A program made the translations under genes and the position numbers. 64,000 bases of DNA from Microtetraspora sp. NBRC 13810 (GTDB lineage: Bacteria; Actinomycetota; Actinomycetes; Streptosporangiales; Streptosporangiaceae). Where the stretch lies: contig NZ_BSRQ01000003.1 of the NCBI RefSeq assembly GCF_030268685.1, positions 286,598 through 350,597 on the forward strand, written 5' to 3'. The notes below the pieces were generated by a model, which saw only the letters and a program-made list of their open reading frames with translations, did no database searches and was not told the DNA's origin. Shown piece after piece: positions 44,118-51,088 of this stretch. Position 1 is the stretch's first letter, and each line of letters starts with the position of its first letter.

Positions 44118-44244
44118 AGGCACGCAAAGTTAACAAGCACGACGTTGGGCGTTCAGCTCAGTCACCCCCGAAAGGACACCCCCATGGCTAGGTTTCGATG
44201 CACCCCCAGCTCAGGGCCGTTTTCGTCAGTCATGAGGAGTTATC

Positions 44245-46305
44245 TTGCGAGTCCTGGCCGTTGTTCCCGCCCGTGGTGGTTCAGTGGGCGTCCCGCTGAA
44301 GAATCTCGCCCAGGTGGGCGGCACGCCGCTCGTCGCCCGCGCGGTCCGGGCCTGCGTGCGGGCAGAGCTCGTCGACGAGGTCGTGGTCAGCACCGACCAT
44401 GACGGGATCGCCGAAGCCGCCAGGGCAGCAGGCGCCACGGTGATCGACCGTCCGGCCGAGCTGAGCGGCGCCGCCGCCTCCAGCGAGTCCGCCGTGCTGC
44501 ACGCGCTCGACAACACCGGCGAAGCACCCGACGTGGTCCTCCTCGTCCAGTGCACCAGCGCCTTCATCGACCCGGCCGACCTCGACGCCGCCGTGGCCAA
44601 GGTGCTCGCCGGCGAGGCGGATGTCGTCTTCTCCGGCCTGCCCACCCACGAGTTCCTGTGGGGTGAGAACGGCACCGGCATCAACCACGACCCCGCCGTA
44701 CGGCCGCGCCGCCAGGACCTGGAGCCGCACTACCGGGAGACCGGCGCCTTCTACGTGATGCGCGCCGAGGGCCTGCGCGAGCACGGCCACCGCTTCTTCG
44801 GCACGGTCGCCGTCCAGCCGGTGGACGCGGGCGAGGCCATCGAGGTCGACACCCCGGAGGACCTCGAGGTCGTCCGCGCGCTCGCCCCGGTCCTGGACCG
44901 GCCCGAGCCGATCGACGTCGACGCCGTGATCACCGACTTCGACGGCGTGCACACCGACGACAGCGCGCACGTCGACCAGGACGGCCGGGAGTCGGTCGCG
45001 GTCAGCCGCTCCGACGGCATGGGCGTCTCGCTGCTGCGCCGGGCCGGTGTGAAGCTCCTGATCATGTCCACCGAGCACAACCCGGTGGTGACCGCCCGCG
45101 CCCGCAAGCTCGGCGTCCCGGTGCTCCAGGGCCTGGCCGACAAGGCGACCGTGCTGCGCGACTGGCTGGCCATCGAGGGCCTCGACCCGGCCCGCGTCGC
45201 CTACGTGGGCAACGACGTCAACGATCTCGGCGCGATGGCCGAGGTCGGCTGGCCGATCACCGTGCCGGACGCGCACCCGCGGGTCCGCGCCGCCGCGCGC
45301 GTCGTGCTGTCCCACGCGGGCGGGGCGGGAGCCGTACGGGAGGTGTGCGACCGGGTGCTGGCCGCGCGGCCCGGCGCCGAGCTGGCGCCCGCGCCGGCCG
45401 CGCCGCGCGCCGAGCTGCGGCTCAGCCCGGTGGCCAGGCCGGTGCAGATCGGCGACCTGCTCGTGGGCGCCGGCCAGCCGGTGTACATGATCGGCGAGAT
45501 CGGCATCAACCACAACGGCGACCTGGACATCGCGCGCCGGCTCATCGACGTGGCCGCCGACGCGGGCTGCCAGGCGGTGAAGTTCCAGAAGCGCACTCCG
45601 GAGATCTGCGTCCCGCTGGAGCAGCGTGACCAGATCCGTCAGACGCCGTGGGGCGAGATGACGTACCTGGAGTACAAGGAGCGCACCGAGTTCGGCATCG
45701 ACGAGTACACCCAGATCGCGAAGTACTGCGAGGAGCGCGGCGTCCAGTGGTTCGCCTCGCCGTGGGACGTGCCGTCGGTGGAGTTCCTGGAGGACATGAA
45801 CGTCGTCACGCACAAGGTCGCCTCGGCCAGCGTGACCGACCACGAGATGCTGCGGGTGCTCGCCGCCACCGGCAAGCCGATCATCCTGTCCACCGGCATG
45901 TCCACGCTGGAGGAGATCGACCGGGCCGTGGAGATCCTCGGCACCGGCAAGCTCGTGATGATGCACGCCACCTCCACCTACCCGCTGCCCCCGGAGGAGG
46001 CCAACCTCCGCACGATCGTCACCCTCCAGGAACGGTACGGCGTGCCGGTGGGCTACTCGGGTCACGAGCGCGGCCTGCAGATCTCCATGGCGGCCGTCAC
46101 CCTCGGCGCCGTGGCCGTGGAGCGGCACATCACGCTGGACCGCACGATGTGGGGTTCGGACCACGCCGCCTCGCTGGAGCCCGCCGGGCTGGAGCACCTG
46201 GTCCGGGACATCCGGATCATCGAGACCGCGCTCGGTGACGGCGTCAAGCGCGTCTTCCCCGGCGAGGAGGCGCCCAAGTCCCGGCTGCGCCGCGTGACCG
46301 TCTGA
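44245..46305 (+). CDS. trifunctional nonulosonate enzyme: CMP-sialate synthetase, HAD phosphatase and NeuB synthase fusion
   Basis: 686 residues in three modules. Residues 1-220 are a NeuA-like cytidylyltransferase (LAVVPARGGSVGVPLKN; LLVQCTSAFID; HYRETGAFYVM). Residues 225-375 are a KdsC/HAD phosphatase (ITDFDGVHTDD, GNDVNDLGAM). Residues 400-686 are a NeuB-like PEP-condensing synthase (YMIGEIGINHNGDLDIARRL; AVKFQKR; ASPWDVPSV; YPLPPEEANL; GYSGHE). The C-terminal SAF (antifreeze-like) domain of usual NeuB proteins is missing. One chain could thus make a 9-phosphate sugar acid, dephosphorylate it and charge it to CMP, a logic that fits Kdn-9-P or Neu5Ac-9-P. The TTG start has AGGAG upstream. 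It begins a surface-glycan locus. Confidence 0.92.
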   Translation: MRVLAVVPARGGSVGVPLKNLAQVGGTPLVARAVRACVRAELVDEVVVSTDHDGIAEAARAAGATVIDRPAELSGAAASSESAVLHALDNTGEAPDVVLLVQCTSAFIDPADLDAAVAKVLAGEADVVFSGLPTHEFLWGENGTGINHDPAVRPRRQDLEPHYRETGAFYVMRAEGLREHGHRFFGTVAVQPVDAGEAIEVDTPEDLEVVRALAPVLDRPEPIDVDAVITDFDGVHTDDSAHVDQDGRESVAVSRSDGMGVSLLRRAGVKLLIMSTEHNPVVTARARKLGVPVLQGLADKATVLRDWLAIEGLDPARVAYVGNDVNDLGAMAEVGWPITVPDAHPRVRAAARVVLSHAGGAGAVREVCDRVLAARPGAELAPAPAAPRAELRLSPVARPVQIGDLLVGAGQPVYMIGEIGINHNGDLDIARRLIDVAADAGCQAVKFQKRTPEICVPLEQRDQIRQTPWGEMTYLEYKERTEFGIDEYTQIAKYCEERGVQWFASPWDVPSVEFLEDMNVVTHKVASASVTDHEMLRVLAATGKPIILSTGMSTLEEIDRAVEILGTGKLVMMHATSTYPLPPEEANLRTIVTLQERYGVPVGYSGHERGLQISMAAVTLGAVAVERHITLDRTMWGSDHAASLEPAGLEHLVRDIRIIETALGDGVKRVFPGEEAPKSRLRRVTV

Positions 46306-46339
46306 CACCGCCGGGAGGCCGGCGGCCTCCGGCGAACCG

Positions 46340-46373
46340 GAACGTGATCCCGCGCCCGCGCGGGATCACGTTC
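46340..46373. terminator. strong hairpin between the nonulosonate enzyme and the glycosyltransferase
   Basis: GAACGTGATCCCGCG and its exact complement form a perfect 15-bp stem with a 4-base loop, followed by a TC-rich run. It stands 34 bases after the stop. It can end transcription or set the ratio between the enzyme and the glycosyltransferases downstream. Confidence 0.8.
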
Positions 46374-46414
46374 TCTTCCCCCCACTGTCGGAACGTGGTC
46401 CCAGAAGGAGAGAT

Positions 46415-47398
46415 TTGATCACGCTTTCGGTCGTCCTGCCGGTCAAGGACGCCGAGCTCTACATCGGCGACGCGCTCACCTCGCTGACCCGCAACGCGCG
46501 GCCAGGCTACGAGTTCATCGTGGTGGACGACGGATCGGCGGACGCCACCGGGCGGATCATCGACGACTTCCGCGGTGAGCTGCCCGGGCTGAGCGTCCTG
46601 CGCAACCCGGCCCCCGTCGGGCTGGCCGACGCCCGCAACCTGGGCCTGTCGCTCGCCTCCGGCCGGTACGTCACGTACATGGACGGCGACGACTGGCTCG
46701 CCCCGGGCTATCTTCCACGGCTGGTGGCCGCCATCGAGGACCTGGGCTGCGACTTCGTCCGGGTGGACCACGTGCAGGCCGAGGGCCGCAAGCGGGTCGT
46801 GCACCGGGCGCCGCAGGCCAGGCGCGGCGTGGTCCTCGACCCCCGGGACGGCATCCTGCCGGTGGACGGCAGGTCGATGGTCGACTACCCGTACGCGTGG
46901 GCCGGGATCTACCGGCGTGACCTGGGCGACCTGCTGACCTTCCCGGGCCATCTGCACACCGCCGAGGACCGGCCGTGGATCTGGCGGCTGCACCGCAGGG
47001 CGCGTTCGTACGCGGTGGTGTCCCTCGCCGGGCTCTTCTACCGGCGGCAGGTGCCCGGCTCGCTCACCCAGATCGGCGACGAGCGGCAGTTGCAGATCTT
47101 CGACGCCTTCGAGCTGGTGTTCAAGGACCTCGAAGAGGAGCCGGTCTTCCTGCCCAAGGCGGTGCGCAACCTGTGCGCGCTGATCGCGCACCACCTCGAA
47201 CTCGCCGAGCGCTTCAGCCCGGAGCTGCGGGTGAAGTTCGACGAGCGGGCCGCGGACGCGCTGCGGCGGCTGCCCTCCGACCTGCTCGCCGCGACGCTCA
47301 CCAGGATCGAGTCCGAGCGCGCGCGGGCGCTGAGCGCCCTCATCCCGGAACTGGAAGTGGATCTGCCCGGCCCCCGGCCCCCGCAGGAGGACGCATGA
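46415..47398 (+). CDS. family 2 glycosyltransferase
   Basis: 327-residue GT-A enzyme. SVVLPVKDAELYIGDALTSL, FIVVDDGSADAT and the metal-binding MDGDDWL are classic GT2 motifs. The C-terminal 120 residues are helical. There is no membrane segment, so it works at the inner face. TTG start with AAGGAGAGA upstream. It overlaps the polysialyltransferase-like gene by four bases (ATGA), so they are translated together. The transferred sugar is unknown. Confidence 0.9.
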   Translation: MITLSVVLPVKDAELYIGDALTSLTRNARPGYEFIVVDDGSADATGRIIDDFRGELPGLSVLRNPAPVGLADARNLGLSLASGRYVTYMDGDDWLAPGYLPRLVAAIEDLGCDFVRVDHVQAEGRKRVVHRAPQARRGVVLDPRDGILPVDGRSMVDYPYAWAGIYRRDLGDLLTFPGHLHTAEDRPWIWRLHRRARSYAVVSLAGLFYRRQVPGSLTQIGDERQLQIFDAFELVFKDLEEEPVFLPKAVRNLCALIAHHLELAERFSPELRVKFDERAADALRRLPSDLLAATLTRIESERARALSALIPELEVDLPGPRPPQEDA

Positions 47399-48788: not shown

Positions 48789-50048
48789 TCAGGTGATGGC
48801 TTTGAGGTAGCGGCGCACCCGCCGCTTGGCGCGGTAGCCCACCCGGAGCATGTCCGGCGGGATCTCGACGCGGAGCCTGGCCCTGCGCCGGGCGGCGGCG
48901 TGCTGCGGGCCGTCGAGCAGGGACGCGGCGGGGCGCAGCCGGCCGGCGCGGGCCTCGGTGGACATCGCCGCGAGCCGGGCGGCCCAGTCGGCGGCGGCCC
49001 TGTCGTGGAAGTAGTTGGCCTGGCACCAGGCGGGCAGCGGGTCGCGGAACTCGCCCTTGGCCAGCTCCTCCAGGGTGCCGAGGCAGCCGCTGCCCTCGAA
49101 GACGAGGTTGATCATCTCGGCGCTGACGCCGAAGTCGGACAGCACCAGCAGCGGCACCGACTGGGCGATCGCCTCCAGGGCCGCGGTGGAGCTGACGGTC
49201 ACGAATCCGACGGCGTGCGCGAGGTGCTCGTGCATGGCCCCGTCGGCGAACCGGACGCCGCCGTCGCGCACCCGGCCCTGGGCGACCAGCTCGCGCCACA
49301 GCCGCTCGTAGTGGTAGCGCTCGTTGTGCGTCTGCCGCTCGCCGTCCCTGGCCCTGAGCTTGACCACGACGTCGAGGTCGGGGCGCCGGTCGGCGAGCGC
49401 GGCCAGCGCGAACAGCACGCTCTCCCGGTCCTCCCTGCGCCGCGGCACCTTGGCCTGGGTGGCGAAGACGACACGGTCGCGGGGGCCGGTCGGCGCCACC
49501 GTGGTCCCGTGGTCGAGGAAGGGCAGCCGGGCCAGCCCGATCGCCCCTCCCCCGCCGAGCCGCTCGGCCACCGCCGAGAACTCGCCCACCTCGCGCCCGC
49601 TGTGCAGCACGAACAGGTCGCAGCCGCTGCGGAACAGCCACGCCTTGTCGGTCGCGGGCACCGAGATGCCCGGCAGGCCGGAGACGAACACCGGGCGCGG
49701 GGAGAGGCCGTCGAGCACCTCCGAGACCAGCACGTCCACCACCGGGCCGGTGCAGGCGACCAGGACCGCGTCCGGCTGGAACCGCTCGGCCAGGCGGCGC
49801 AGCCGGCGGGCGGACAGGACGGGAGGCAGGCCGCTGTCGTCACCGTCCTCCACGGCCGGGCCGGCGGACCGCGCCGCGGCGGCGCCGGAGCGGGTGCCGG
49901 CGACCGCGGCCCGGATCTGCCCGGACGAGGGGGCGATCGGCGTGCGGATGACGACGAGCTCTGTGGCGCTCCCCGCGGGCAGGCCGTCGAGCAGGCATGC
50001 GGCCCACTTCAGATAAGAGTCCGAGTCGGCCACCGCCAGGACCTTCAC
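48789..50048 (-). CDS. DUF6716-like putative glycosyltransferase
   Basis: 419 residues with a GT-B-like two-domain pattern. KVLAVADSDSYLKWA starts the first domain. The second has VVFATQAKVPRRREDRESV, VVVKLRARDGE and VTVSSTAALEAIAQSVPLLVLSDFGV, which resembles the donor-binding half of sialyl- and CDP-glycerol-type transferases. I recall the family as DUF6716, a putative glycosyltransferase. It starts at a GTG overlapping the stop of the upstream gene (GTGA). The basic C-terminal tail (RAKRRVRRYLK) could bind the membrane. It belongs to the nonulosonate locus by position. Confidence 0.7.
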   Translation of the reverse strand: MKVLAVADSDSYLKWAACLLDGLPAGSATELVVIRTPIAPSSGQIRAAVAGTRSGAAAARSAGPAVEDGDDSGLPPVLSARRLRRLAERFQPDAVLVACTGPVVDVLVSEVLDGLSPRPVFVSGLPGISVPATDKAWLFRSGCDLFVLHSGREVGEFSAVAERLGGGGAIGLARLPFLDHGTTVAPTGPRDRVVFATQAKVPRRREDRESVLFALAALADRRPDLDVVVKLRARDGERQTHNERYHYERLWRELVAQGRVRDGGVRFADGAMHEHLAHAVGFVTVSSTAALEAIAQSVPLLVLSDFGVSAEMINLVFEGSGCLGTLEELAKGEFRDPLPAWCQANYFHDRAAADWAARLAAMSTEARAGRLRPAASLLDGPQHAAARRRARLRVEIPPDMLRVGYRAKRRVRRYLKAIT

Positions 50049-51088
50049 CGAGTAACTCCTGAGTCATGATGTGCGAACATTTGCAGGTGGGAACGTAGGG
50101 AGGGGGCCGCCTGCGCGGTCCACCAGTCGTCCGGCACCTCCACCGCGTCGACGCTCACCCCGCGGGCCGACAGCAGCACCCGCAGCGACGTGACGGCCGT
50201 GGAGGGCAGGCTCAGCACACGTTGTTCCGCCGACAGACCGCGTAGCGTCATTTCGGCGGGCGCTCCGCCATCGTAGACCCGAATGCCCGGTTGTTCCCGA
50301 ACTCGATCGAGATCTCCGGGATCTTCTCTCCGGTGCGGGAAATAGGCGACCGGGCCGTCCGTGCCGAGCCCGGCGAGCCAGTCGAAGTAGCGGTCGCGGT
50401 GGATCAGGCCGTTGCGGACCAGCGACGTGCCGAGCACGATCGTCCGCTCGCCGGGCAGCGGCCGGGCGAGGGGCTGGGCGCGCAGCCAGGCGAAGTCGTG
50501 CAGCACCAGCCGGGCGCCCGCGCGGCGGACCCCGTCGGCGAGGGCCTCGGGCACGGGGAGCGCGGTGAAGACCGACAGCCGTCCGGCCCGGGCGGCGGCG
50601 CGCAGCCGCAGCCCGGCCGCGGTGCCGAGGGCGTAGCGCAGCGGCCCGGCCTGGGCTCTGGCCCGCAGCAGGGGCTTCCAGGGCCGTCCGCCGAGAAGTT
50701 CGAGCAGATGGATGGTGGCGAGCCCGTCGTCGACGATCACCACGCGGCGCGGGAAGGCGGTGAGCAGGCTGAGCTGGACCTTGCCGGAGAACGCGTCGCC
50801 CACCGCCCAGGTGGCGCCGCGGCGGGGGCGGCGCATCTCGCTCTCCGGCGCGGTGAGCGTCGCGCCGGGCGGCAGCGCCAGCCCTTTGAGCTCGCGGCGG
50901 GTCGCGTTCAGCGCGGGGAGTTTGGCCCGTGGCACCACCTGCGTGTCCGCGCCGAGCAACCCCGCATGATGGGCCTCCACCGCGCAGAGCATCTGCAGCG
51001 GGGATTCCACCCAGGCCACGGCCGACCCTTGCTCCCGCGCGTGGTGCGGCCGACCATCTTCCTCCACGCCGGATCTTGACCCGTTCAC
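50045..51088 (-). CDS. sialyltransferase-like protein of the GT52/polysialyltransferase superfamily
   Basis: 347 residues. AWVESPLQMLCAVEAHHAG near residue 25 is the typical opening of this family. VVIVDDGLATIHLLELLGG and YFPHRREDP, then VLSLPSTAVTSL, correspond to the superfamily HP and ST motifs (here PHR and PST). It should act on CMP-nonulosonate. The start is a GTG at 51088, with a TAACGT box upstream (near leaderless); a GTG at 51019 with a better ribosome site gives a shorter form. It precedes the DUF6716 gene with a 4-base overlap. Confidence 0.7.
   Translation of the reverse strand: MNGSRSGVEEDGRPHHAREQGSAVAWVESPLQMLCAVEAHHAGLLGADTQVVPRAKLPALNATRRELKGLALPPGATLTAPESEMRRPRRGATWAVGDAFSGKVQLSLLTAFPRRVVIVDDGLATIHLLELLGGRPWKPLLRARAQAGPLRYALGTAAGLRLRAAARAGRLSVFTALPVPEALADGVRRAGARLVLHDFAWLRAQPLARPLPGERTIVLGTSLVRNGLIHRDRYFDWLAGLGTDGPVAYFPHRREDPGDLDRVREQPGIRVYDGGAPAEMTLRGLSAEQRVLSLPSTAVTSLRVLLSARGVSVDAVEVPDDWWTAQAAPSLRSHLQMFAHHDSGVTR

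Follow-up and report, generated by a model that had tools for sequence, protein, structure and literature searches.

What does a single gene encode when it joins, in one frame, domains of three enzymes of one sugar pathway? This question was raised by a locus in the window, the 64-kb stretch of DNA analyzed here, which an earlier note had read as one protein with a NeuA-like, a HAD, and a NeuB-like module. Domain content, conservation, a tree, gene order, and an upstream repeat were computed. The results suggested that the protein is probably a trifunctional enzyme that converts mannose-6-phosphate (Man-6-P) via Kdn-9-P and Kdn to CMP-Kdn, and that it feeds a phosphate-free Kdn wall polymer under phosphate shortage.

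Three modules in one reading frame

The fused gene occupied positions 44245-46305 of the plus strand and encoded 686 amino acids from a TTG start, with no internal stop. A Shine-Dalgarno sequence, GAGGAG (44234..44239, plus strand), was located 5 nt ahead of the start, and GC by codon position was of the coding type across the ORF. Module 1 (residues 1-220; 44245..44904) was a CMP-acylneuraminate-synthetase-like (NeuA) domain, module 2 (residues 221-376; 44905..45372) was a HAD domain of the KdsC/KDN-9-P phosphatase type, and module 3 (residues 395-686; 45427..46302) was a NeuB TIM barrel with the SAF domain absent. A linker (residues about 377-394; 45373..45426) lay ahead of module 3, and all of these segments were on the plus strand. 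The order of the modules in the chain was the reverse of the pathway order.

As indicated by Pfam, CTP_transf_3 matched residues 5-158, HAD (Hydrolase_3) matched residues 297-358, and NeuB matched residues 433-668; these domains came out in the order that the earlier note had given, and no SAF domain was found. KdsC and KDN-9-P-phosphatase models of NCBIfam matched residues 225-375, and no nonulosonate model in NCBIfam reached its curated cut-off on the fused protein. AlphaFold2, which was supplied with 85 sequences drawn from the window and from its loci, predicted three domains with confidence (mean pLDDT, 89.4) and disorder in the linker (residues 377-394). Because the pTM was 0.47, the relative placement of the three domains was not fixed by the model. 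The uninterrupted ORF, the Pfam matches, and the AlphaFold2 domains confirmed that the three modules share one frame.

We aligned 118 rows, consisting of 81 fused rows and 37 others (the latter included the fused L175, and L169 without its N terminus), and found 135 invariant positions. Catalytic motifs were intact in the HAD and NeuB modules of the fused rows and mostly kept in NeuA; a loss of catalytic residues from two of the modules, which the earlier note had considered, was not seen.

HAD phosphatases of the KdsC/KDN-9-P type are defined by a DxDG..T motif, a Lys, and a GNDxND motif. The corresponding residues of the window protein were present (D231, D233, T237, K300, D324, and D327), and the motifs were found in 81/81 fused rows; the first Asp was missing in one unfused row. 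The KDN-9-P phosphatase equivalog NF058599 matched with 85.1 bits, under its curated cut-off of 180, and was outscored on the HAD module by the KdsC model (NCBIfam). The nearest solved chain to the HAD part was 3mmz from Streptomyces avermitilis, and the HAD part also aligned with the Bacteroides KDN-9-P phosphatase 3e81. The earlier proposal that a phosphatase in this chain implies a 9-phosphate intermediate was supported.

The NeuB barrel (PF03102) scored 278.9 bits in Pfam. Conserved Glu, Lys-x-Gln, and His residues with catalytic roles are hallmarks of such barrels, and E418, N422, H423, K446, Q448, H607, E626, and H628 were invariant in the 118 rows. The top NeuB equivalog was N-acetylneuraminate synthase TIGR03569 (265.5 bits), whose cut-off of 399.65 was not reached. 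The SAF domain was absent, as the earlier note had reported. The 105 fused and 48 unfused close NeuB sequences (153 distinct ones) terminated -16 to +20 amino acids from the end of the window protein; because the unfused ones ended at about the same point, the absence of SAF is unrelated to the fusion, and SAF loss caused by fusion was rejected. These end points indicate that the entire NeuB subfamily lacks SAF, in unfused as in fused members, and that this trait is an older one. Ten of 11 weaker NeuB matches extended at least 54 residues further, and the remaining one (L212) was a fragment at the end of its locus.

The source genome also contained a paralogous second NeuB, which carried a SAF domain. 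This NeuB belonged to a second nonulosonate cluster (L172; G000:C1:713014-724018), which also encoded a Polysacc_synt_2 dehydratase, a CTP_transf_3 protein, a sulfotransferase, and a protein that resembled GT28 with a score below the cut-off; the cluster resembled a pseudaminic-acid pathway. A third, weak NeuB-like match (L239; G000:C25:48457-48723) scored 28.7 bits, barely over the cut-off.

Distribution and origin of the fusion

An order-wide search of 345 genomes at a threshold of E 1e-80 yielded 149 matching genomes, which were classed by hand count. The fusion was present in one frame in 129 of these, NeuA-HAD and NeuB were split in 17 (including G895, G916, and G918, which were classed from having two matches each, without coordinates), and the fusion was cut at contig ends in 3 (G032, G093, and G875). 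The 129 fused cases were 126 full-length matches without a stop and 3 matches that kept one frame but contained an insert or a gap (G086, G111, and G948). Since 129/149 matching genomes shared the one-frame form, an assembly error or frameshift was rejected and the fusion was taken as real. In addition, the G086 and G111 fused proteins (L188 and L189) carried about 20 inserted residues close to position 144 of NeuA.

Among GTDB contigs, 269 loci were confirmed, and the best 80 of the 269 were all fused. The genera named in the titles of these 80 loci presumably belong to Streptosporangiaceae, and tree labels assigned the best-80 loci that were used in the tree to this family. In the phylum sample, 46/396 genomes matched at 1e-30, and in the class sample, 80/394 genomes matched at 1e-60; outside the window's family, only G736 had a stop-free full-length frame in these two samples. 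In much of Streptosporangiaceae, the fusion is the norm and not a rarity. The interpretation offered by the earlier note was partly supported: the modules, the 9-phosphate intermediate, and Kdn as the likeliest sugar were upheld, with the corrections that the absence of SAF is unrelated to the fusion and that the fusion is common. The enzyme kind is known, and, in agreement with the earlier note, no characterized triple fusion and no description of the three-module architecture was found among the papers listed in searches of the open-licence PMC literature. Seven plasmid records reached at least 80% coverage, one of which was an 11.9-Mb Nonomuraea gerenzanensis record filed as a plasmid, and the remaining six matched in two or three pieces. 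None of the six matching phage records reached 80% of the query.

In most of the split loci that were fetched, NeuA-HAD and NeuB adjoined on the same strand, and the two genes often overlapped or were separated by a few bases; in some loci, both genes were in the same frame with a single stop between them. Exceptions included L169, where the genes were on opposite strands, and G702, where NeuB was far from NeuA-HAD. In six genomes of the family with separate genes (L140-L144 and L146), NeuA-HAD ended with TAG and an in-frame ATG of NeuB followed a few bases on; loss of the stop in this arrangement would fuse the two genes.

In a 65-row tree, from which the linker was left out, the 28 fused rows of the family formed one group (SH-aLRT, 99) that adjoined 12 split rows. 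Split rows lay all around, and G736 was placed with two split rows. In a more careful 34-row tree, a single change was allowed in 0/200 bootstrap trees, and a single clade of fused rows was rejected (p-AU 0.000147); the group submitted to the AU test was defined by architecture after the quick 65-row tree was known, and each of the two trees had branches flagged as long. Because split rows surrounded the fused rows and one origin for all fusions was rejected by the AU test, the simplest reading takes the two-gene state as ancestral. The fusion would then be most simply derived from a NeuA-HAD/NeuB gene pair and would have arisen at least twice. The second, separate fusion was L175 (G736:C2:656907-668976), from another family, and its linker contained a Met about where the NeuB of split loci begins.

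A missing P-loop lysine and the likely sugar

CTP_transf_3 matched the NeuA module with 72.5 bits (Pfam cut-off, 22.6), and the fold of the module matched 1eyr, 9t4z, and 1qwj at Z 28-29 in VIA-align, by which 9t4z and 1eyr tied. Among solved chains, 9t4z, which is titled CMP-Kdn synthetase, matched the NeuA part best by sequence (113.9 bits), and the second among solved NeuA chains was mouse CMAS, 1qwj (103 bits). R10, K19, N20, Q102, R156, Q157, E200, and D202 were kept, and the last five were invariant in the 118 rows. The roles of Q104, R165/Q166, and D209/D211 in the N. meningitidis enzyme are described in an excerpt of PMC2901514, and these residues were mapped to the window NeuA by our own column assignment. 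In this assignment, E200/D202 was the acidic metal pair equivalent to D209/D211 (N. meningitidis numbers), with Glu replacing Asp at E200.

The P-loop set of Arg12, Lys16, and Lys21 was incomplete: the Arg12 and Lys21 equivalents (R10 and K19) were present, but Lys16 was replaced by V14. In 106 distinct fused NeuA sequences, this position was V (52), A (53), or T (1) and never Lys (0/106). In unfused NeuA-HAD loci, 61/62 of which had a residue there, it was K in 55, R in 2, Q in 2, and V in 2; this 62-locus set counted the G702 gene twice and included 22 short loci without NeuB that were classed as unfused from search listings (one of which, G848, was at a contig end and could be either). The Pro following QxTS was replaced by Ala in 104/106 distinct fused NeuA sequences (A106 in the window) and was retained in the fused L026 and L175 and in 62/62 unfused loci. 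In an excerpt of PMC6580227, Lys16 is called invariant and placed on the beta-phosphate in the Vibrio CMP-sialate synthetase, and E. coli K16A and K21A are cited as considerably attenuated and inactive, respectively. The fused NeuA may work like CMP-acylneuraminate synthetases, yet it departs from them at Lys16.

The NeuA/NeuB distance ratio at matched NeuB distance was 1.92 for fused rows and 2.50 and 2.18 for two split sets. Because the fused ratio was not above the split ratios, there was no clear sign of NeuA decay; across all pairs the result was mixed, since the fused slope (1.89) fell between those of the split sets (2.43 and 1.54). Decay of the module was therefore not supported at matched distances, and the NeuA domain appears to be in use, although the rate test was not decisive.

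The loss of Lys16, which occurred in both fusion lines, is the puzzling part of the system. The lysine might be dispensable because the HAD and NeuB modules alter the binding or the delivery of CTP or free Kdn, in which case channelling, or a basic residue of another module that completes the CTP site, would replace it, and the three modules would work as one coupled machine, not as separate beads on a string. We consider such compensation doubtful. In its favor, the lysine was lost in both fusion lines without clear decay, but Lys was also absent in 6/61 unfused NeuA-HAD loci (2 Q, 2 V, and 2 R). One of these, the unfused L184 with V at this position, adjoined the second fusion in the 65-row tree, so the loss may predate fusion. 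Repeated fusion, together with loss of a lysine called invariant in the excerpt of PMC6580227, amounts to a natural experiment on the CTP site.

We infer the three activities, the Kdn product, PhoP control, and the wall-polymer end product from these and the following observations. The NeuB barrel would convert a hexose 6-phosphate and PEP to a nonulosonate 9-phosphate, the middle HAD would strip the phosphate to give the free sugar, and the N-terminal NeuA would couple the free sugar to CMP. The sugar would most likely be Kdn, made from mannose-6-phosphate. The neighboring glycosyltransferases would then use CMP-Kdn for a phosphate-free Kdn wall polymer (teichulosonic acid) that would be made at phosphate shortage.

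The choice of sugar depended partly on precursor supply. The single NeuC match in the source genome (TIGR03568) scored 69.5 bits against a cut-off of 235.9, NeuC was over this cut-off in 0/26 genomes (2/14 controls were over it), and no NanE was found in the source genome. Hence no dedicated supply of ManNAc or ManNAc-6-P was found there. NanE was present in the fused relatives G003, G005, and G011, which makes Neu5Ac-9-P possible in them. The CMP-Kdn-synthetase match, the Kdn wall polymers of actinomycetes, and the missing NanE and NeuC together made Kdn the likeliest sugar and Neu5Ac a possible one, in line with the earlier note, which had called Kdn plausible. We met no report of Kdn in the source organism or its genus in the literature.

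If the same three steps acted on ManNAc-6-P, as in vertebrates, the products would be Neu5Ac-9-P, Neu5Ac, and CMP-Neu5Ac. The top NeuB equivalog, although below its cut-off, was an N-acetylneuraminate synthase, the NeuA-HAD pairing is like that of vertebrate CMAS (3ewi and 1qwj were among the matches), and some fused relatives have NanE. This outcome is nevertheless unlikely, given a source genome without NanE and without NeuC over the cut-off, a CMP-Kdn synthetase as the best solved NeuA match by sequence, and the Kdn in actinomycete wall polymers described in literature excerpts. A Kdo-like sugar of 8 or 9 carbons, or another 2-keto sugar acid, was raised as a product because KdsC and KdsB models also match: KdsC was the top HAD equivalog and KdsB models matched NeuA weakly. 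Such a product is very improbable, because the synthase was NeuB by Pfam and not KdsA, KDO-8-P synthases were just fold-level matches (11-14% identity), and a polysialyltransferase-family gene was a neighbor.

The altered P-loop bears on a further reading, in which NeuB and HAD are active, NeuA is crippled and kept for dimerization or structure, and another cytidylyltransferase finishes the pathway. A, V, or T in place of Lys16 in 106/106 distinct fused NeuA sequences would fit a bifunctional protein of this kind, as would the second CTP_transf_3 gene, which this genome carries in its other nonulosonate cluster. We regard it as quite unlikely because K19 (the Lys21 equivalent), R10, Q102, R156, Q157, E200, and D202 were kept, no clear NeuA relaxation was detected (with mixed slopes over all pairs), and Q, V, or R also replaced Lys in 6/61 unfused NeuA-HAD loci. 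A trifunctional enzyme that makes CMP-Kdn was thus our preferred reading. If its activities hold, one polypeptide would lead all the way from a sugar phosphate of central metabolism to CMP-Kdn and would be a useful one-pot catalyst.

Neighboring genes, upstream repeat, and related systems

Downstream of the fused gene, a family 2 glycosyltransferase (GT2) gene (46415..47398, plus strand; Pfam) and a gene for an alpha-2,8-polysialyltransferase family protein (PF07388; 47395..48717, plus strand), the start of which overlapped the GT2 stop, were each found in 79/80 named fused loci. Two genes convergent to this pair encoded a DUF6716 putative glycosyltransferase (48789..50048, minus strand) and a conserved protein without a Pfam match (50045..51088, minus strand); with flanks of at most 6 kb, they were found in at least 63/80 and at least 52/80 loci, respectively. 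A 16-bp hairpin (46339-46374; -30.6 kcal/mol; z -7.3) lay between the fused gene and GT2. This terminator-like hairpin was rejected as a component of the system, as stems of at least 10 bp occurred in just 11/81 loci.

Upstream of the fused gene, a PHO-box-like element (44129..44155, plus strand) contained GTTAA and GTTCA with starts 22 nt apart (2 x 11) and was the only repeat of this kind within the 64-kb window. GTTMA occurred twice at 22 nt in 75/81 fused loci, and of the 6 loci without this spacing, 4 had the pair at 11 nt, which placed a phased repeat ahead of 79/81 fused genes, although shared descent means that the 81 loci do not count as independent cases. In L065 and L095, the two loci that remained, ATTAA replaced GTTAA at 22 nt. 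When spacings of 8 to 31 were scanned, just 10 and 12 were found besides 22 and 11, both in L105-L107, which would fit a third GTTMA in between. Letter-shuffled upstream regions contained a mean of 0.0 repeats in 20 rounds, and the repeat was found in 0/49 split loci.

According to an excerpt of PMC6988585, PHO boxes in Streptomyces consist of direct repeats of 11 nt with GTTCACC, a consensus from which the fused-gene repeat diverged. The GTTMA repeat was not found before pstS in the source genome, whose own repeat reads differently, and the window element fit a PHO box less well than the pstS repeat did. Genome-wide, there were 15 matches at 22 nt versus 3 for a reversed control, and 11 versus 5 at 11 nt. 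These counts and the pstS result made the GTTMA repeat weak as an organism-wide PhoP site. The pstS repeat itself, GTTCACCTTTC-AGTCACTTTTT (L268; G000:C11), is likely a PHO box of the organism. The fused gene may be switched on at phosphate shortage. If the three enzyme activities hold, the protein would be a direct probe of how actinomycetes may exchange phosphate-rich for phosphate-free wall polymers.

Several known systems resemble the fused protein in part. Chains 1qwj and 3ewi, which we take to be parts of one protein, vertebrate CMAS, with NeuA followed by HAD, matched the NeuA and HAD parts of the window protein, but CMAS lacks NeuB. The best fold match of module 3 was the Leptospira NeuB 6ncs (Z 36.4; 34% identity); the solved chain has 285-290 residues and is thus without SAF, like the window NeuB, but it is a single domain in the crystal, whereas the window NeuB is part of a three-module chain. 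On pSymB of Sinorhizobium meliloti (CP140934.1; L273), genes for NeuB, a cytidylyltransferase, and DUF6716 were adjacent, which showed that a similar gene set occurs in Alphaproteobacteria; there, the genes were separate, with NeuB first and 42.5% identity in two pieces, in contrast to the fused gene of the window. The window protein would carry out the three reactions of the Bacteroides and Prymnesium CMP-Kdn pathway, and its NeuA matched 9t4z and its HAD matched 3e81, but in an excerpt of PMC6200933 the Kdn-9-P synthase, Kdn-9-P phosphatase, and CMP-Kdn synthetase are separate proteins, whereas the window has one chain.

S. coelicolor SCO4877-SCO4882 and its Planobispora rosea counterpart have the same gene kinds, by product name, as the window. 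In genomes of family code f3, which we took for Streptomyces, NeuA-HAD and NeuB were two genes, whereas the window has one. A mutant study by Ostash and colleagues reportedly connects the Kdn polymer with this region of S. coelicolor; a literature search pairing SCO4881 with teichulosonic gave no match. We take P. rosea to belong to the same family as the window organism. In an excerpt of PMC8269224, its genes RS15220, 15225, 15230, and 15235 are assigned to SCO4882, 4879, 4877, and 4878, and RS38880, a "Sialic acid synthase" whose tag is far from the other four, is assigned to SCO4880, all with Pho activation; when the window genes are taken from the far end, RS15220-RS15235 follow the same order. 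A phosphate-starvation list excerpted from PMC2267785 includes SCO4873 and SCO4877-4881, and the main wall polymer of S. coelicolor is a phosphate-free galactose-Kdn teichulosonic acid according to excerpts of PMC7831098 and PMC11481543. Judged by gene order and product names alone, the window genes would be a cluster of the SCO4877-4882 type.
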